From Bacteroidota bacterium (GTDB lineage: Bacteria; Bacteroidota; Bacteroidia; Chitinophagales; BACL12): DNA of 64,000 bases. Positions 35,418 to 43,754 of the stretch are shown piece after piece. A program made the position numbers and the translations under genes. Numbering within the stretch: the stretch's first letter is position 1; the number at the start of each line of letters is the position of its first letter. The stretch spans positions 1 to 64,000 of the forward strand of contig JAKQVC010000049.1 in the NCBI GenBank assembly GCA_029571985.1, written 5' to 3'. Under the pieces are notes generated by a model that saw only the letters and a program-made list of their open reading frames with translations, was not told where the DNA came from and ran no database searches.

Positions 35418-37685
35418 ATGAAACAATTTTATCTATTAGTCGGAGCATTGCTTTGTGGAATTTCTTTGTTCGGCCAACAGGGTCGCTTAACAGGTAAAGT
35501 GCAGGATGCGTCCACCGGTGACCCGCTGATAGGAGCTACCGTGGTTACCGATCAAATGCTGGGCGTTTCTACAGATATTGATGGCGCTTTTATTTTAGAT
35601 GTCCCTGCGGGTTTGGTAGAATATTCGGTGAGTTATGTCGGATATGTAACCCAAAAATATAGTTTAACGGTTGAGGCAGGACAGGAATACACCATTTTGG
35701 TGGACTTGGTTTTGGAGGAAGGATTATTGAATACGATTGTGGTAACCGGAAGTAAATTTGAAAAGAAGCTGGGTGAGGAAACCGTAACTATCGATGTTAT
35801 TAAATCCGATTTAATAGAACACACCAACGATGTGCGTCTTGATCAAAGCGTACAGCGCATGCCGGGTGTTAGTGTTATTGACGGACAGGCAAATATTCGC
35901 GGCGGTTCCGGGTATAGTTATGGTGCCGGCAGTCGCGTGCTTTTGCTCATGGATGATCTTCCGGTATTAACAGGTGATGCCGCTTTTCCAAGCTGGGATT
36001 TTATTCCTATCGAAAATATTCAGCAGGTTGAAATCATTAAAGGTGCATCCAGTGCTTTGTATGGTAGTAGTGCGTTAAATGGTATTATTCATGTGCGCAC
36101 CGCATATCCCACATCCACCCCTGAAACAAAATTTTCATTTTTTAATGGGGGATATTTTTCGCCAGCCGATACAGCGCAAAAATGGTGGGGAGATGATTTT
36201 CCATTTATGGCCGGAGCCAACTTTGCCCATAAGCAAAAATTTGGTCGCTTCGATTTAGTGACCGGTTCTTATATCTATGCGCAAAACAGTTATCTGAAAG
36301 ATATTTACAATCGTCGCGGACGAATTAATATGAATACGAGATATCGTATTTCCAGTAATTTTTCGGTTGGACTTAATGTGAATGCACAAATGAGCCGTTC
36401 AGCCAATTTCTTTTTCTGGAATAATGCAGATAGCGGCTTGTACATTCCTGCGGAAGGAACCGTTTCCTTAAATCAAGGGTTTAAAATAACGGTAGATCCT
36501 TTCATTCATTATTTTGACCAAAAAGGTAACCGCCACAAACTACTTTCGCGTTATTACGGCAATCACAATGAAACACCCGGCGTTGAACAAAGTAATTTCA
36601 GCGATTTATACTATGCTGAATATCAATATCAAAAACATATTGAAGCTATTAATCTAGTATTAACCTCAGGTATACTCGCCAATCAGGCACATGTAAGTGC
36701 GGCTTTGTATGGCGATAGTACTTATACAGCAGCCAATCAGGCCTTGTACATACAGGCCGATAAAAAAATGTTCAATAAATTAAATCTAAGTGCAGGCATG
36801 CGCTATGAGTTTAATCAAATTGGCACATTGCAGGAATCGCGACCGGTGTTCAGAGCGGGGGCCAATTATCAGTTAGCAGATTATACGTATTTGCGAGCTA
36901 GTTGGGGACAAGGTTACCGATTTCCAACCATCGCCGAAAAATATATCAGTACCGGTATTTCAGGACTGAGTATTTTCCCTAATCCGGATTTGACATCCGA
37001 AACCGGGTATAGTGCGGAAGTGGGTGTTAAACAAGGATTGCGTATCAGTAACTGGCAGGGTATGTTAGATGCAAGTGCATTTATTTCTGAGTATGCTGAT
37101 ATGATGGAATTTACTTTTGGCTATTACAACACAACAGGAACAGCCATTGCCCCCGGATTTAAATCGCTGAATATCGGCGATACACGAATTCAAGGATTTG
37201 AAGTGTCGTTTATTGGTCAGGGTAAATTGGGTTCAGTGCCAACCTCTTTAATCCTGGGCTATACGTATATCGATCCTACCTTTCAGGTATTTGATAGTTT
37301 GCAGGATGCGCTTTCAAGTGCTGATTACAATGTGTTGAAATACAGATTCCGCCATACAGTTAAATTTGATATCGAAAGCACATTTAAACAATTCAGAATT
37401 GGCGTGACGTGCAATTATAACAGCTTTATGGAGGCTGTGGATGCTGCATTTGTTGACCCTATTATTCCGGCAATTAATTTATATATCATTGAAGGGTTGC
37501 AGGATTATCGCGACGAACATAATACAGGAGACTATGTGGTGGATATCCGAATGGCTTACGTGTTGAAGAACAGCAATGAAATAAGTTTGATTTGCGCTAA
37601 TATGCTCAATCGCACCTATAGTCTGCGACCAGCCATGATGGAGGCCCCGCGCAATATTATGGTGAAATACAGTGTGCGTTTATAA
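35418..37685 (+). CDS. TonB-dependent outer-membrane receptor
   Basis: 755 residues from ATG 35418 (signal ending SLFGQ at 20). Carboxypeptidase-like regulatory domain at about 22-105 (GRLTGKVQDASTGDPLIGATV), TonB box/plug at about 106-225 (NTIVVTGSKFEKKLGEETV, IRGGSGYSYGAGSRVLLLMDD, EIIKGASSALYGSSALNGIIH), then the 22-strand barrel to RNIMVKYSVRL. Imports a large or scarce nutrient using the proton-motive force. Substrate unknown; the B12 locus lies 1.8 kb downstream, but a separate riboswitch is not seen here. A weak -7 box (TATCTTTA, 35391-35398) precedes it. A small gene follows by 15 nt. Confidence 0.93.
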   Translation: MKQFYLLVGALLCGISLFGQQGRLTGKVQDASTGDPLIGATVVTDQMLGVSTDIDGAFILDVPAGLVEYSVSYVGYVTQKYSLTVEAGQEYTILVDLVLEEGLLNTIVVTGSKFEKKLGEETVTIDVIKSDLIEHTNDVRLDQSVQRMPGVSVIDGQANIRGGSGYSYGAGSRVLLLMDDLPVLTGDAAFPSWDFIPIENIQQVEIIKGASSALYGSSALNGIIHVRTAYPTSTPETKFSFFNGGYFSPADTAQKWWGDDFPFMAGANFAHKQKFGRFDLVTGSYIYAQNSYLKDIYNRRGRINMNTRYRISSNFSVGLNVNAQMSRSANFFFWNNADSGLYIPAEGTVSLNQGFKITVDPFIHYFDQKGNRHKLLSRYYGNHNETPGVEQSNFSDLYYAEYQYQKHIEAINLVLTSGILANQAHVSAALYGDSTYTAANQALYIQADKKMFNKLNLSAGMRYEFNQIGTLQESRPVFRAGANYQLADYTYLRASWGQGYRFPTIAEKYISTGISGLSIFPNPDLTSETGYSAEVGVKQGLRISNWQGMLDASAFISEYADMMEFTFGYYNTTGTAIAPGFKSLNIGDTRIQGFEVSFIGQGKLGSVPTSLILGYTYIDPTFQVFDSLQDALSSADYNVLKYRFRHTVKFDIESTFKQFRIGVTCNYNSFMEAVDAAFVDPIIPAINLYIIEGLQDYRDEHNTGDYVVDIRMAYVLKNSNEISLICANMLNRTYSLRPAMMEAPRNIMVKYSVRL

Positions 37686-37700
37686 TGAATAATCAGGAAC

Positions 37701-37991
37701 ATGACGTTAGGTGCCGTTGTAAGTAAATTGCGGAAACGCATGATTGAATATCGCTGGCATACGCGTTTTGAAACGAGCATGCATCAGGCCGCTGACTATA
37801 TTGAAATAGCACTCAATCTGGCCGAATTAAGTATTGTGCAAAGCAGGCCTGTTACGCCGGAGGAAGAGGTTTGGTTTCATGAAGGTTGGCCGGTAGTGCA
37901 TTCGCTGGAGGATACAGAGTGGGAGGATATTATTGATTTATATCGCACCCTGACCTTTAAACTATCTGAACGCAATTGGATGCGCGTTTAG
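37701..37991 (+). CDS. Small hypothetical protein downstream of the TonB receptor
   Basis: 96 residues, soluble, rich in aromatic and acidic residues (EEEVWFHEGWPVVHSLEDTEWEDIIDLYR). It starts 15 nt after the receptor stop and is probably co-transcribed. Family not recognised. Its last 4 nt overlap the stop codon of the convergent HTH gene. Confidence 0.6.
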   Translation: MTLGAVVSKLRKRMIEYRWHTRFETSMHQAADYIEIALNLAELSIVQSRPVTPEEEVWFHEGWPVVHSLEDTEWEDIIDLYRTLTFKLSERNWMRV

Positions 37992-38989
37992 GTGGATGTA
38001 GTTAATCGCTCGCGCGTCTGATCGATTTGCTTTAATAAACTCTTAAAGTATCTTCTTCTGTTTTTTTCGGCAATACCGCTGATTAAATTGCTTTTGGTCA
38101 TGATGCGCTTCAGCCAGTTTTTTGTTTCATGAGCATACCTGGTACTATTGGTTGCCAGGATATTATAGGTCATGTGGCTGATATAGGAAGTAATACGCCC
38201 GCCTGATTCTGTAAGAATGGTATTGTTTCCAAGTAATACATCACTCTGATATAAATTAAATTCTGCATACCGTTGTTTTGATTTATCACCCGGCACTAAT
38301 TTGCAACTCAATGCCGCCATTTCTTCGGCATGTTGAACTAGTTGTTGTAAATTATCCAATATGAGCAAGGCGTCATCAATAGAGGCAAAGTAATCAGCTT
38401 CCCAGTAATAAATAATTTGACGTAGCGTGGTATGCATAATATCATCAGGCCAGATTTCATCACTTGGCAGCATGAGGTAGGTCTGATATATTTTTTTCGC
38501 ATAATCAATCAGGGCATTGTCTACGTCCATCGGATCGTAATGCGATTTAAAATCGGGAATACCTTCAATTTCACGCATCCAGAAATGCATCTTAAAACGC
38601 GCCAATGGTTCGAAGGCAAAATGTTGAAATACCGGCGCATCAATAGCCGCGTAAATCATGTGCCTGTCATCATTATTTAATAAGGCATCAGAGGCCACAT
38701 GAATCATTTCTATATGTTTCAGAAAAGATGCGCGTGTGCCTTCCGGTGCAACATATTTAAAATTGACGAGCCCTTTAATTTCATCCGTAAAAACCGCAAT
38801 GGGTATTTTGTAATGATTACAAAGCGTAATGGCCTCATCGACACTTACAGCTGTTTCACCCCTGATACGGCGGTAAGCGCTGTCGGGACTGATGTTTAGA
38901 ATTTCTGCGATTTGATCAGCAAGCGAGAGGTGTTCCGGAAGCATGTCCCGTAATCGCTGCATGAAATCTAGCTGGTATGGGTTTTCCAT
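37988..38989 (-). CDS. Helix-turn-helix protein with long unknown C-terminal region
   Basis: 333 residues. The N-terminal ~60 contain a XRE-like HTH (LSLADQIAEILNISPDSAYRRIRGETAVSVDEAITLCNHYKIP), with the recognition helix near PDSAYRRIRG. The other ~270 residues are helical (repeated ILDNLQQLVQHAEEM-like segments) and have no signal peptide or catalytic motif I recognise; they may sense a ligand or partner. Widespread relatives in Bacteroidota are described only as HTH proteins. It is opposite in direction to the B12 locus, which starts 240 nt behind it. Confidence 0.7.
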   Translation of the reverse strand: MENPYQLDFMQRLRDMLPEHLSLADQIAEILNISPDSAYRRIRGETAVSVDEAITLCNHYKIPIAVFTDEIKGLVNFKYVAPEGTRASFLKHIEMIHVASDALLNNDDRHMIYAAIDAPVFQHFAFEPLARFKMHFWMREIEGIPDFKSHYDPMDVDNALIDYAKKIYQTYLMLPSDEIWPDDIMHTTLRQIIYYWEADYFASIDDALLILDNLQQLVQHAEEMAALSCKLVPGDKSKQRYAEFNLYQSDVLLGNNTILTESGGRITSYISHMTYNILATNSTRYAHETKNWLKRIMTKSNLISGIAEKNRRRYFKSLLKQIDQTRERLTTST

Positions 38990-39212: not shown

Positions 39213-39220
39213 TATTTTTA
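39213..39220 (+). promoter_or_regulatory. Possible -7 box of the B12 riboswitch transcript
   Basis: TATTTTTA, one mismatch from TATTTTTG, about 10 nt before the first conserved riboswitch positions. Weak because no -33 TTTG is at the right distance. Confidence 0.35.
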
Positions 39221-39229
39221 TCCTGCATT

Positions 39230-39410
39230 AGCGGTTGGCGGCCAGTTGATTCAACTTGCTGCCCTAAGAGGGAACCCGGTGTGAATCCGGGGCAGTCCCC
39301 ACTGCTGTAAGTTCGCATACTGTGCTTTTGGGAGCGCAATACCACTGTTCGCCAGATGGCGAATGGGAAGGTTTCCCAAAAGGCGAACAAGCCAGAAGAC
39401 CTGCCGATAG
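39230..39410 (+). ncRNA. Cobalamin (B12) riboswitch
   Basis: The conserved core is clear: AAGAGGGAACCCGGTGTGAA (39266-39285), TCCGGGGCAGTCCCCACTGC (39286-39305) followed by TGTAAG, and the B12 box GCCAGAAGACCTGCC (39391-39405). The arrangement matches adenosylcobalamin-type riboswitches. A small hairpin, GTCTTT-GGGGC-AAAGAC (39424-39440), follows and lies about 60 nt before the ATG at 39501, so the switch could act on translation or on termination. When B12 is plentiful it should lower expression of the downstream genes. Confidence 0.93.
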
Positions 39411-39500
39411 ATGCACGATCATCGTCTTTGGGGCAAAGACTATGTGGCCAGTACCTGATTAGTACGCCTCATATTTATTAACCACTTAAACAACTCAAAC

Positions 39501-40781
39501 ATGAGGAAATGTTTCTTTACACTTTCCATGCTGGCAATTACAGCCGGTGTATTTGCTCAAGCGTATACAGCACGTGTGCTTGTATTAAATGAGGGCTATT
39601 ATGATTATTTAGCAGATAGCATTTTAGTGCCGGTATCTATTGGCGCTTATAATCCTGCAACCGGTGTTTACACTACCATTGATGAAGTAGAAGGTGCAAG
39701 ATTTGCATCTGATGTGGTCATTGATGGTGATGCCTATTTTGTTGCCGCTGACCACGCGTTATTAAAATATGATTTGCTTACCGACATGTTGTTGGATGAG
39801 GCAGATGTGGCAGGTATCCGGAAAATTGCCGTGTCCGGAGATTACCTTGTAGTAACCAGAGGCGAATATCTGGTTGATCTGCCTTCTTATATCCAGGTAT
39901 ATGATCGCACAAACCTGGAATTGATTTTTGAAATTTCATCAGACGTTTTACCCTACACAACAGAAGGCGTTACCATACAGGATAATCTTGCCTATGTAGC
40001 GGTAAATAATGGTTTTGTATTTGGCTCAGAGGTTGGAAAAATTGTTGTAGTGGATTTAAATACACAGGAAATTATCCAAACTGTTGAACTCGGTGCGGAT
40101 GGCATTAACCCGGATAACCTGATGATTGAAGGCGATTATATTTATACGCTGAACAATAAAGATTTTACCGGAAGTTCAGTAAGCGCATATCGCCTGACAA
40201 CCGGCGATTTGTCAACCACCAACTTAATGAATATTTCCAGTGGATGTGGAACGAGTGCGATTAATAGCGGCACTATTTATTATCAGGAGATGTTTGGCAC
40301 CACCTTAAGTCGTTTTGATGCCGCAACGCAATCGATAGTTGGCGAGGATGAAGTGAGTCTGAGTTTTTATGGTCTTGGTTTTGACCCGGTATCAGGAAAT
40401 ATGTATGCCAGTGAAACGGATTATTTCAGCTATGGAAAAGTACACGTGTACAATTCAGACCTGGAAGAAATTGCGGTATTTAATGCCGGTGTTTCTCCCG
40501 GAACCTTTGCGTATGATGTGCGGTTGACCACTGCTGTCGACAACGCAGATAAAGCGATATTTACAGCATATCCTAATCCTGTTGTAGATGTTTTACATGT
40601 TAGCGGTGTAAACGCACAGGATGTGATTTTTATTCGGGATATCACCGGTAAACAAGTAATGGAGATGCGTGCAGCAGATAACAATACCCTCGATTTACCT
40701 GTACAGTTTTTGCCTTCAGGCATGTATACGATTACCGTAGCAAGTCAACAGGCGTCTTATACCCAAACTTTTATTAAGTAA
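39501..40781 (+). CDS. T9SS-exported beta-propeller protein under B12 riboswitch control, BtuG-like candidate
   Basis: 426 residues. Signal peptide 1-19 (ending GVFAQ). Residues 24-345 form a propeller-like series of strand repeats of the YncE/DUF5074 kind, opening with RVLVLNEGYYDY and VPVSIGAYNPATG, and including KIVVVDLNTQEIIQTVELG and NLMIEGDYIYTLNNKDF. The C-terminal ~75 residues are a Por sorting domain beginning AYPNPVVDVLHVSG and ending TQTFIK. Placement directly behind the B12 riboswitch and before btuFCD suggests that it binds cobalamin at the cell surface, like the lipoprotein BtuG of Bacteroides, but delivered by type IX secretion. B12 binding is inference from context. Confidence 0.8.
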   Translation: MRKCFFTLSMLAITAGVFAQAYTARVLVLNEGYYDYLADSILVPVSIGAYNPATGVYTTIDEVEGARFASDVVIDGDAYFVAADHALLKYDLLTDMLLDEADVAGIRKIAVSGDYLVVTRGEYLVDLPSYIQVYDRTNLELIFEISSDVLPYTTEGVTIQDNLAYVAVNNGFVFGSEVGKIVVVDLNTQEIIQTVELGADGINPDNLMIEGDYIYTLNNKDFTGSSVSAYRLTTGDLSTTNLMNISSGCGTSAINSGTIYYQEMFGTTLSRFDAATQSIVGEDEVSLSFYGLGFDPVSGNMYASETDYFSYGKVHVYNSDLEEIAVFNAGVSPGTFAYDVRLTTAVDNADKAIFTAYPNPVVDVLHVSGVNAQDVIFIRDITGKQVMEMRAADNNTLDLPVQFLPSGMYTITVASQQASYTQTFIK

Positions 40782-40790
40782 TTAACCTTC

Positions 40791-40823
40791 AAATCGCCCG
40801 AACCCCCGATGTTCGGGCGATTT
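40791..40823 (+). terminator. Strong hairpin between the beta-propeller gene and btuF
   Basis: Perfect 13-bp stem AAATCGCCCGAAC (40791-40803) / GTTCGGGCGATTT (40811-40823), 7-nt loop, ending TTTATAT. It starts 9 nt after one stop codon and ends 5 nt before the next ATG. It could be a partial terminator that lowers transporter expression relative to the propeller protein; its right arm also covers the region where a ribosome binding site of btuF would be. Confidence 0.75.
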
Positions 40824-40828
40824 ATATC

Positions 40829-41956
40829 ATGCGCGGTCTAATATGGGTTTTTATCGGTTCAGTTTTCTGGTTGTCGTGTTCGCAGGATAGCCGGCAACAG
40901 GATCATGCAGCTGATCATCATCGGATACCTGTAACTTATGCCAAGGGATTTGTGATTGATGCCTATGCCGATCACTATTTGGTTACGGTCAGAGATCCGT
41001 TGGATACACTGAATATTTTGGCGCAATATTATTTAAGCAAAACCCCTCCATCGGCAGATAAGTCAGAATCCACTATTCAGATTCCTGTACGTAGAATGGT
41101 GAGTTTATCTACCACGCATGTGGGCTTTTTGAAATCATTAAATTGTTTGTCTGCACTAGTCGGATTCAGCGGAACACAATATATCTGCGATTCAACCGCT
41201 CAGGCAATGATTGCTTCAGGAAATATTGCTGAAGTGGGAAATGATGGCGGTTTAGACCATGAACGGTTGTTGTCATTACATCCTGATATTGTAATGACAT
41301 ACCAGACAGGTAATGCGGCGTATGACCAGATTACAAAATTGACATCCTTACATCTCGCACCGGTAATTAATAATGAGTTTAAGGAGTTGAGTCCGTTGGG
41401 ACAGGCGGAGTGGATTAAATTCATTGCTGTATTCTTCGATAAATTGCCGGAAGCTGAATCACAATTTGCCCAAATAGAAGCCGAGTATCTGCAATTAAAA
41501 AAAATGGCACAACAGGTTACAACGAGGCCTGCTGTATTTACCGGATTGGCTTTTAAAGGAGAATGGACAATACCGGGTGGTAAAAGTTTTGCCGCTCAAT
41601 ATTTTGCAGATGCGGGTGCGGATTATGTTTGGAAGGAAAATGACCAAATCGGAAATGTAGTAATTTCTCTGAGTAGTGTGATGGAAAGAGGACTTGATGC
41701 GGATTATTGGCTGCATCCGGGTGCAGCTGTTTCACTGCAGGAAATTGCAGAGGCAGATAGCCGATACACACATTTTAAGGCCTGGAAATCCGGCGTCGTT
41801 TATAATAATAATGCCCGACAATCAGAGAAGGGGGGTAATGATTATTGGGAATATGGTATTGTGTATCCAAATGTGGTGTTGCGTGATTTGATTTACATCT
41901 TTCATCCGGAATTATTGCCCAATCATGTTTCCTGTTTTTATACCCAACTTCATTAA
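40829..41956 (+). CDS. btuF: BtuF-like ABC transporter substrate-binding lipoprotein
   Basis: 375 residues. Lipobox WLSC (Cys17). Two alpha/beta lobes typical of class III (metal-chelate/cobalamin) binding proteins: lobe 1 with RRMVSLSTTHVGFLKSLNCLSALVGFSG, LDHERLLSLHPDIVMTY, and lobe 2 with AVFTGLAFKGEWTIPGGKSFAAQYFADAGADYVW. An extra ~75 N-terminal residues precede lobe 1. It hands the ligand to the permease encoded next; the stop (TAA) and next ATG share one base. Cobalamin is inferred from the upstream riboswitch; siderophore or haem would otherwise be possible. Confidence 0.85.
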   Translation: MRGLIWVFIGSVFWLSCSQDSRQQDHAADHHRIPVTYAKGFVIDAYADHYLVTVRDPLDTLNILAQYYLSKTPPSADKSESTIQIPVRRMVSLSTTHVGFLKSLNCLSALVGFSGTQYICDSTAQAMIASGNIAEVGNDGGLDHERLLSLHPDIVMTYQTGNAAYDQITKLTSLHLAPVINNEFKELSPLGQAEWIKFIAVFFDKLPEAESQFAQIEAEYLQLKKMAQQVTTRPAVFTGLAFKGEWTIPGGKSFAAQYFADAGADYVWKENDQIGNVVISLSSVMERGLDADYWLHPGAAVSLQEIAEADSRYTHFKAWKSGVVYNNNARQSEKGGNDYWEYGIVYPNVVLRDLIYIFHPELLPNHVSCFYTQLH

Positions 41957-42978
41957 TGCGGCATCCCGATAAAACAAAATTGATTTTTCTGGTCGTTTTG
42001 CTAATCGTATTGGCAGCGCTAGATTTATCTTTCGGGACCGTTCAGGTACCCTTATCAGATATCTGGCGGATGATTACCGGTGATGTGGGCGAGGATCAAT
42101 TGTGGAGCATTATTATCATGGAAATCAGGCTCCCGAAAACATGTACTGCTATTTTAGCGGGTTGTGCACTTCCGGTAGCCGGGTTATGTATGCAAACCTA
42201 TTTTAGAAATCCGGTAGCGGGGCCTGATATTTTAGGCGTTTCAGCAGGCTCTAGTCTTTTTGTGGCTTTCCTCATGTTATCCGGCATTTCGATTACCTCT
42301 GCATCTGTTTTCGGCACTGTGCCTATCATTCTTGCTGCTGTTTCTGGTGCTGCACTGGTATTGATTGTCATACTTTTTGTGTCTGTGCGAATTCGTGACA
42401 CCATGACCCTGCTTATTTTCGGCATCATGTTCGGCATGGCCATTAGTGCCGTAGTGGGTGTGTTACAATATTATAGTGAGCGTGGTGCCTTGAAATTATT
42501 TATGTTGTGGACTTTTGGCAGCTTAAATGGTGTTACACTTGAGCAGCTGAATTGGTTTGCGCCGATTATTATTTTAAGTTTAATCGGCGCGATGTTTCTT
42601 TCCGGGAAATTAAATTTATTGTTGCTGGGCGAGCAGTATGCAAAAAGCTCCGGATTAAATGTTAGACAAACGCGATATCTCGTTATTCTGTTAACAGCAG
42701 TTATTACCGGTGTGATTACAGCTTTTTGCGGACCAATTGCCTTTATTGGTATTGCAGTGCCACATCTTGCCCGTATGTTATTCCGGATCAATGATCATCG
42801 CATTTTATTGCCGGCATGCATGTTAATTGGTGCCTGCATATTACTCATCTGTGATATGCTCACACAAATTCCCGGCGAAGATGGCATCCTACCTTTAAAT
42901 GCAATTACGGCATGTATGGGAGCGCCATTCGTTATTTTTATTATTTGGAAACAACAGCATGTAGCAAATCAATTCTGA
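41956..42978 (+). CDS. btuC: BtuC-like (FecCD-family) ABC permease
   Basis: 340 residues with about ten membrane helices. Diagnostic FecCD blocks: RLPKTCTAILAGCALPVAGLCMQTYFRNPVAGPDILGVSAGSS and the coupling/helix region AFCGPIAFIGIAVPHLARMLF. Forms a homodimeric inner-membrane channel for cobalamin-type chelates. Translation is coupled on both sides: its ATG overlaps the btuF stop and its TGA overlaps the btuD ATG (TGATG). Confidence 0.92.
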   Translation: MRHPDKTKLIFLVVLLIVLAALDLSFGTVQVPLSDIWRMITGDVGEDQLWSIIIMEIRLPKTCTAILAGCALPVAGLCMQTYFRNPVAGPDILGVSAGSSLFVAFLMLSGISITSASVFGTVPIILAAVSGAALVLIVILFVSVRIRDTMTLLIFGIMFGMAISAVVGVLQYYSERGALKLFMLWTFGSLNGVTLEQLNWFAPIIILSLIGAMFLSGKLNLLLLGEQYAKSSGLNVRQTRYLVILLTAVITGVITAFCGPIAFIGIAVPHLARMLFRINDHRILLPACMLIGACILLICDMLTQIPGEDGILPLNAITACMGAPFVIFIIWKQQHVANQF

Positions 42979-43754
42979 TGGAAACAGCCGGACCAATAGT
43001 ACATACCGCACAGTTATCCATTGGATATCCCGACAAGATGATTGCAAGTGACATCCGGTTCGATATATTGCCCGGAACATTTACCGCTATTCTTGGTCAT
43101 AATGGGACAGGTAAATCGACACTCCTTAAAACAATTGCAGATTTGCAAAAATCCATTTCCGGTGAAGTGTGCATTGATAATAAACCAATACCGGATTATT
43201 CGGTTTTTGAAAAAAGCAGGTTGATATCCATTGTATTAAGCAATCGAAATGAGATTGTGCAAACACTGCGTGTTTATGAGGTGCTTTCGCTTGCAGTGGC
43301 TCCGCATCGGGAATGGTATCGAAAACTATCCGCCAGAGAACAGCAATCTATTGAAGAAATGGCTGCGCAATTGGGTATTGACAGGTTTATGAACCGACAG
43401 TTGTTTTCTTTGAGTGATGGTGAAATGCAAAAGGTTGCTATAGCCCGTGCACTTCTGCAAAACACGCCTATTTTATTATTAGATGAGCCAACTGCACATC
43501 TTGATTTGCATCATAAAATTGAAATATATCTGTTACTTCAATCTTTAGCCAGAAGTGGTAAAACGATTATCTGCACTTCGCATGATGTTGAACTTGCCGT
43601 CAAATCAGCTTCACATGGTTTGCTGATAGGAGAGGGGAGAGCACAATTTAATCCTATGCGAACTTTGATTGATTCAGGTGCGATATCCCAATATTTTACA
43701 GCAGGGAATGTGCAATTTAACAGCGCGGCACTTCGCTTCGATTATTCGTTGTAA
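42978..43754 (+). CDS. btuD: BtuD-like ABC transporter ATPase
   Basis: 258 residues from the ATG at 42978 inside the btuC stop. Walker A GHNGTGKST at 40-48; signature LSDGE (a known variant of LSGGQ) in LFSLSDGEMQKVAIARALL; Walker B ILLLDEPTAHLD; switch His in ICTSHDVELA. Energises the BtuC channel. An open frame upstream to 42912 lies inside btuC and is not used. Last gene of the locus; the next gene is convergent. Confidence 0.9.
   Translation: METAGPIVHTAQLSIGYPDKMIASDIRFDILPGTFTAILGHNGTGKSTLLKTIADLQKSISGEVCIDNKPIPDYSVFEKSRLISIVLSNRNEIVQTLRVYEVLSLAVAPHREWYRKLSAREQQSIEEMAAQLGIDRFMNRQLFSLSDGEMQKVAIARALLQNTPILLLDEPTAHLDLHHKIEIYLLLQSLARSGKTIICTSHDVELAVKSASHGLLIGEGRAQFNPMRTLIDSGAISQYFTAGNVQFNSAALRFDYSL

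Follow-up and report, generated by a model that had tools for sequence, protein, structure and literature searches.

How does a bacterium capture vitamin B12 and bring it across the outer membrane when its cobalamin riboswitch precedes a gene for a secreted propeller protein and its genome encodes no BtuB receptor? This question is raised by positions 39213 to 43754 of a 64,000-nucleotide stretch of DNA (hereafter the window; positions 1 to 64,000 of contig JAKQVC010000049.1, assembly GCA_029571985.1) from a Bacteroidota bacterium of the order Chitinophagales. BtuG has been described as a surface lipoprotein that forms a lid on BtuB. A preliminary description of the window had proposed that a BtuG-like propeller has here exchanged its lipid anchor for delivery by the type IX secretion system (T9SS). 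Our analysis points to a larger change, and we consider it probable that a T9SS-exported, corrinoid-capturing propeller replaces the BtuB-BtuG pair altogether, with hand-over to a transporter other than BtuB and import by a BtuFCD-like system. The elements concerned are the following.

39216..39422, + strand, cobalamin riboswitch aptamer (RF00174; Rfam 100.8 bits, model positions 1-189)
39424..39440, + strand, probable kissing-loop hairpin GTCTTT-GGGGC-AAAGAC, expression platform (loop complementary to aptamer L5)
39501..40781, + strand, T9SS-tailed propeller protein of the BtuG superfamily, 426 amino acids (aa) (Pfam and NCBIfam tail matches, fold model)
39588..39608, + strand, NEGYYDY motif, residues 30-36 (alignment to BtuG)
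40791..40823, + strand, 13-bp hairpin in the propeller-btuF gap, which may act as a partial terminator or stabilise the transcript (-20.7 kcal/mol, z -4.75)
40829..41956, + strand, BtuF-like substrate-binding lipoprotein, Peripla_BP_2 (PF01497, 68.4 bits; best NCBIfam match BtuF, below cut-off)
41956..42978, + strand, BtuC-like FecCD permease (PF01032, 265 bits; best NCBIfam match BtuC)
42978..43754, + strand, BtuD-like ABC ATPase (PF00005, 106 bits; same operon as the btuF-like and permease genes)

Riboswitch control of the propeller gene

The RF00174 match is full length (E 5e-24, gathering score 31.5), and its position agrees with the riboswitch core (39266-39311) and B12 box (39391-39405) of the preliminary description. 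It is the sole match in the source assembly (4.0 Mb, 97% complete, 282 contigs), and the start codon of the propeller gene lies 78 bases 3' of the aptamer end. The hairpin that follows the aptamer is probably the expression platform, as its loop is complementary to aptamer L5 (UCCCCA, 39296-39301) and the two loops covary: the window lineage has UCCCCA/UGGGG, and locus L044 has UCCAG/CUGGA. Such a change on both sides is what the kissing-loop platform known from cobalamin riboswitches would predict.

The linkage to the riboswitch is kept among most homologues. A riboswitch lies directly upstream of the propeller gene in 23 of the 25 homologues tested (Chitinophagales, metagenome-assembled genomes (MAGs) of Flavobacteriales, and further relatives), at 58-135 bases from the start codon in the relatives measured. 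In the family of the window btuFCD follows the propeller gene, and in Flavobacteriales the gene is usually solitary, with no adjoining btuFCD. Two arrangements are recorded as observations in their own right. Genome G004 carries two riboswitch-propeller starts on different contigs (L033 and L048), which may be a second copy or strain variation. In locus L123 (G061:C8:39296-39801), two cobalamin riboswitches stand back to back and face opposite ways, with a T9SS propeller-btuFCD operon downstream of one and, downstream of the other, a short pair of genes of which the last encodes a T9SS-like protein.

Fold and pocket of the propeller

The 426-aa protein comprises a signal peptide (about residues 1-19), a seven-bladed propeller (about 21-343), a linker (about 344-353) and a type A sorting domain (about 354-426). 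In a structure model built from 23 homologues (mean predicted local distance difference test score 88), strands for seven blades are predicted across residues 21-343. Comparison of this model with solved structures by Foldseek placed only BtuG chains, all from Bacteroides, among the best 13 matches (E 9e-15 to 5e-13), followed by NirF (8e-12). On realignment, 11 BtuG chains gave Z scores of 31.1-34.4 over about 291-299 residues at 2.2-2.8 A, and the next chain gave 29.8; that other families of propellers do not appear high in the realignment was not counted against kinship with them. Profile-profile comparison with the BtuG lipoproteins of the same order likewise gave a probability of 99.6% (E 2e-24, 295 columns), and in single-sequence phmmer searches BtuG chains alone ranked top, via the last blade. 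High hmmsearch scores to Kelch-type designed propellers were set aside because they are sums of weak repeated blade matches, none of which is significant alone.

Residues of the pocket point in the same direction. In BtuG2 the loop Asn54-Thr64 clamps cobalamin, Tyr316 narrows the cobalamin pocket, and the protein has a negatively charged face (PMC10404256). The NEGYYDY motif of the window protein corresponds in the alignment to NEGNFQ, with which this loop begins, and N30, E31 and G32 are invariant in 23/23 family members; Y290, aligned with Tyr316, is likewise invariant in all 23. The propeller domain is strongly acidic (isoelectric point 4.05), which parallels the negative face of BtuG2. A BtuG-like character of the propeller is thus supported by the modelled fold and the pocket motifs, and the propeller may well bind cobalamin.

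Predicted export by the type IX secretion system

The sorting domain (residues 357-426) exceeds both curated cut-offs, with 38.8 bits to TIGR04183 (cut-off 23) and 39.8 bits to PF18962 (cut-off 27), so that the secreted protein with a Por C-terminal sorting domain of the preliminary description is borne out. The likeness to T9SS type A cargo (TIGR04183) lies in this domain, which is present in 22/23 members of the propeller family. A genome-wide count returned 14 further matches, and among those listed all lie in the sorting-tail region. The machinery itself was judged by SprA, whose N-domain scores 510 bits in a frame of 2436 aa. By inspection, the signal peptide ends in ...AGVFAQAY and no Cys closes the hydrophobic stretch, either in the window protein or in close relatives. 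Together these features suggest that the propeller is exported by T9SS. Type A cargo may be released or anchored, and is often anchored at the surface through lipopolysaccharide. None linked to B12 was found in the literature searched.

Probable replacement of the BtuB-BtuG module

Two profiles were applied to 100 genomes: A3, from receptors behind riboswitches in the order, scores 438 bits to Bacteroides BtuB2 and represents true BtuB, and A4, from lipoproteins of the order, scores 335 bits and represents true BtuG. BtuB was found in 65 genomes and lipoprotein BtuG in 57. What is new here is that the genomes of the order that carry the propeller with the NEG motif lack both: BtuB and lipoprotein BtuG were each missing from 13/13, against 35/100 genomes without BtuB and 43/100 without lipoprotein BtuG overall. 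The hypergeometric probability of this exclusion is 2e-7 for BtuB and 5e-6 for BtuG, with kinship between genomes ignored, and the exclusion repeats within families f1, f3, f16 and f22. In the source assembly the single BtuG-profile match is the propeller itself. The missing riboswitch-linked BtuB beside the operon, which had been remarked on earlier, is therefore an absence from the genome as well as from the operon in the profile search. Among 14 further propeller-bearing MAGs, reached via named loci, no full-length match to class-1 BtuB was found, nor any class-2 receptor save one weak case. The usual outer-membrane gate for B12 thus seems to be lost in carriers of the NEG-type propeller.

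Gene order at matching loci illustrates the exchange. Within the family of the window (f1), G003 and G005 encode BtuB and BtuG and lack such a propeller. The order is riboswitch-btuB-btuG-btuF-btuC-btuD with msrB beside btuD in G003, and riboswitch-propeller-btuF-btuC-btuD-methyltransferase-msrB in G001 and G002. On the upstream side, RNase HI and VUT-type genes flank the riboswitch alike in G003, with BtuB-BtuG, and in G062, G063 and G083, with the propeller. Since flanks and riboswitch are kept at matching sites, the outer-membrane module appears to have been exchanged there with the riboswitch retained. This is the best evidence that the propeller performs an equivalent function. As the genome lacks BtuB, the propeller appears to stand in for btuB and btuG jointly.

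Relation to BtuG and other B12 proteins

BtuG (BtuG1-3; PDB 8blw, 8bmx, 8bmy, 8okv, 8p97 and 3dsm; PF16819) comprises surface lipoproteins of Bacteroides. Common to BtuG and the window propeller are seven blades, the NEG clamp loop, an equivalent of Tyr316, an acidic domain, B12-riboswitch control and adjoining btuFCD. Unlike BtuG, the window protein has a T9SS sorting domain and lacks a lipobox and lipoprotein export signal; its operon and genome hold no btuB, and its overall identity to BtuG is 15-19%. It also has no match to DUF5074 (PF16819) at E 0.1, a model that is matched by every one of the 10 lipoprotein BtuGs of the order. In a tree without Bacteroides sequences, lipoprotein BtuGs are separated from all T9SS propellers with support of 100/100, and the T9SS propellers fall into the NEG group, including the window protein, and a second group ('ANGG'). 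Among genomes of the second group in the tree, 10/11 also have BtuB and 11/11 a BtuG lipoprotein. Judged from the tree and the profile searches, the window propeller is a sister branch of BtuG.

The proposed BtuG-like propeller thus holds with regard to fold, pocket motifs and, in most homologues, riboswitch control. A BtuG with another anchor would be an inaccurate name for it, because it has no lipobox and no DUF5074 match and lies outside the lipoprotein clade, and because second-group propellers coexist with BtuB and BtuG. The earlier idea that T9SS delivery had simply replaced the lipid anchor is not upheld.

Two other B12 proteins are worth comparing. BtuK1 (PDB 9s6c), which binds B12, shares the propeller fold and is structurally farther from the window protein than BtuG (Z 26.4). 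The DUF4465 proteins BtuJ1 and BtuJ2 (PMC13398666, PMC12751083) are likewise accessory B12 scavengers in riboswitch loci and belong to a family unrelated to the propeller.

Proposed uptake route and alternative explanations

Under scarce cobalamin, the riboswitch would permit expression of the operon. A Sec signal peptide would take the propeller through the inner membrane and type IX secretion would take it across the outer one, after which the protein would remain bound to the surface or be released. Its BtuG-like top pocket could then capture corrinoids, filling the capturing role of BtuG without a lipid anchor and replacing the BtuB-BtuG pair in the window lineage. The corrinoid would be handed to an outer-membrane transporter other than BtuB, for which another TonB-dependent receptor with its gene elsewhere is the likeliest candidate. 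The BtuFCD-like ATP-binding cassette (ABC) importer of the operon would then carry the corrinoid into the cytoplasm for use by methionine synthase and acyl-CoA mutases. Enzymes that depend on B12 are encoded in the genome, namely MetH, methylmalonyl-CoA mutase and IcmF. A more general statement, to which we give even odds, is that in several lineages of Bacteroidota the entire BtuB-BtuG module has given way to a T9SS-exported branch of the BtuG superfamily, with passage through a receptor other than BtuB or by another route. Should a T9SS-exported relative of BtuG indeed capture B12 in the absence of BtuB, neither the anchor nor the partner of this type of B12 system would be fixed, T9SS would have a part in the uptake of a vitamin, and many environmental Bacteroidota would take up B12 by a path overlooked by annotation based on BtuB. 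The question would then be which protein of the outer membrane transports B12 where BtuB is lacking.

Several observations weigh against the proposed replacement. The low overall identity to BtuG is accompanied by a single-sequence match that is limited to the last blade, and the BtuG2 pocket residues Trp194 and Trp272 fall in non-aligning loops. Two homologues (L034 and L008) have no riboswitch hit. The genomes are mostly draft MAGs, although six of the propeller genomes are rated 99-100% complete. Finally, no specific outer-membrane partner was found among the BtuB-sized receptors of the propeller genomes examined. The alternative riboswitch-linked receptor class (A5) is absent from the propeller genomes apart from G110, where a match that is full length but weak scores 133 bits (controls 820-917). 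A nearby candidate for such a partner is the following gene.

35418..37685, + strand, TonB-dependent receptor with carboxypeptidase-like N-domain, not of BtuB type, without a riboswitch of its own (sequence searches)

The receptor had been noted as lacking its own riboswitch, and indeed no RF00174 match lies there. That it is the B12 receptor of the organism, with the propeller as its BtuG-like partner 1.8 kb downstream, is in our view unlikely. The gene gives the best and sole near-full-length match in the genome to TIGR01779, the proteobacterial BtuB model, L032 of the same genus shows the same linkage to the propeller (72% identity), and a receptor of about 36% identity ends directly before the riboswitch-propeller in Flavobacteriales-type MAGs (L038:1730-4138 and L041:5249-7657). 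However, that match amounts to 96 bits against a cut-off of 600, profile A3 yields 27 bits at the gene, and phmmer searches of solved structures matched no Bacteroides BtuB and, in E. coli BtuB, the plug region only. Its close relatives are equally common in genomes with and without BtuB, and no such receptor lies in the B12 locus of G002 (L145). Neither sequence nor phylogenetic profile thus supports it as the BtuB of the propeller. Similarly unlikely, to about the same degree, is a propeller released as a B12-scavenging carrier away from the cell instead of serving as a receptor lid. The possible release of type A cargo, the lack of a dedicated receptor in most loci and the solitary gene of Flavobacteriales would suit this explanation, against which stands the frequent lipopolysaccharide anchoring of such cargo.

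A use other than corrinoid binding, for example as a PorZ-like or adhesion propeller that happens to be regulated by B12, is more doubtful still. The propeller fold is very common and one family member has a weak PorZ match, but PorZ is a larger protein with two propellers, BtuG is nearest in structure with a gap to other folds, the riboswitch-first position is kept across orders, and the propeller and BtuB-BtuG exclude each other at matching loci. Least of all do we credit the explanation that BtuB and BtuG are present and were missed in incomplete assemblies, which is very improbable. The source assembly is indeed incomplete and in many contigs, but all 13 propeller genomes lack both genes, including the six that are nearly or fully complete (G020, G052, G058, G062, G063 and G083), and the identical search recovers BtuB in 65 of the 100 genomes. 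Replacement of the BtuB-BtuG pair by the propeller accordingly remains the explanation that we favour.

The btuFCD-like genes and the intergenic hairpin

The overlapping stops and starts of the preliminary description hold for the btuF-like, permease and ATPase genes; they do not extend to the propeller and btuF pair, which is separated by a gap of 47 bases. The three importer genes satisfy the wider Pfam families and fall below the NCBIfam equivalog cut-offs (BtuF 27/234, BtuC 199.7/334 and BtuD 107.6/281 bits), and a BtuFCD role is assigned to them on the basis of the riboswitch and synteny with G003.

Equally strong hairpins of other sequence occur in the same position as hairpin 40791-40823 in L032 and L033 (genomes G001 and G004), one of them followed by a T run. 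Strong hairpins at a matching position in relatives suggest partial termination, by which more propeller than importer would be produced.

Other T9SS-tailed proteins and neighbouring genes

DUF4465 domains bind B12, and the proteins are reported to be mostly lipoproteins, T9SS not being mentioned (PMC13398666). In the order, DUF4465 (BtuJ-type) proteins with the same T9SS sorting domain are encoded in cobalamin-riboswitch loci beside btuB (L128:8339-9586, L129:5088-6077 and L135:7119-8066). T9SS export of B12-binding accessory proteins may therefore be a general theme, of which no description was found in the open-access literature searched.

T9SS-tailed proteins with the motif 'VG.G.D.A.(F/L)VVDF', visible twice in L139, are encoded behind a B12 riboswitch or btuB (L139:5454-6566 and L126:7623-9599). 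They have no Pfam domain except the tail and are possible further B12 binders. A protein of about 495 aa with a SUMF/FGE-sulfatase domain follows a second-class T9SS propeller at L121:6734-8218; similar genes lie beside the propeller in L112, L119, L120, L132, L141, L146, L147 and L148. The C-terminus is mostly GGRGVR-like, and the gene is often accompanied by a small T9SS protein and btuB.

In Flavobacteriales MAGs a conserved gene trio (L183:1040-6422, with equivalents in L182 and L184-L188) encodes proteins of about 329 aa and 817 aa and a TonB receptor of about 645 aa. A conserved receptor of about 645 aa in these MAGs was rejected as a partner of the propeller, having unrelated neighbours and no clear counterpart in the examined regions of the genome of the window. 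Between the TonB receptor of the window and the riboswitch lies a gene for a helix-turn-helix protein (37988-38989), which is 68% identical in G001 and is also present in G004, on the contig with the second riboswitch-propeller start (L048).

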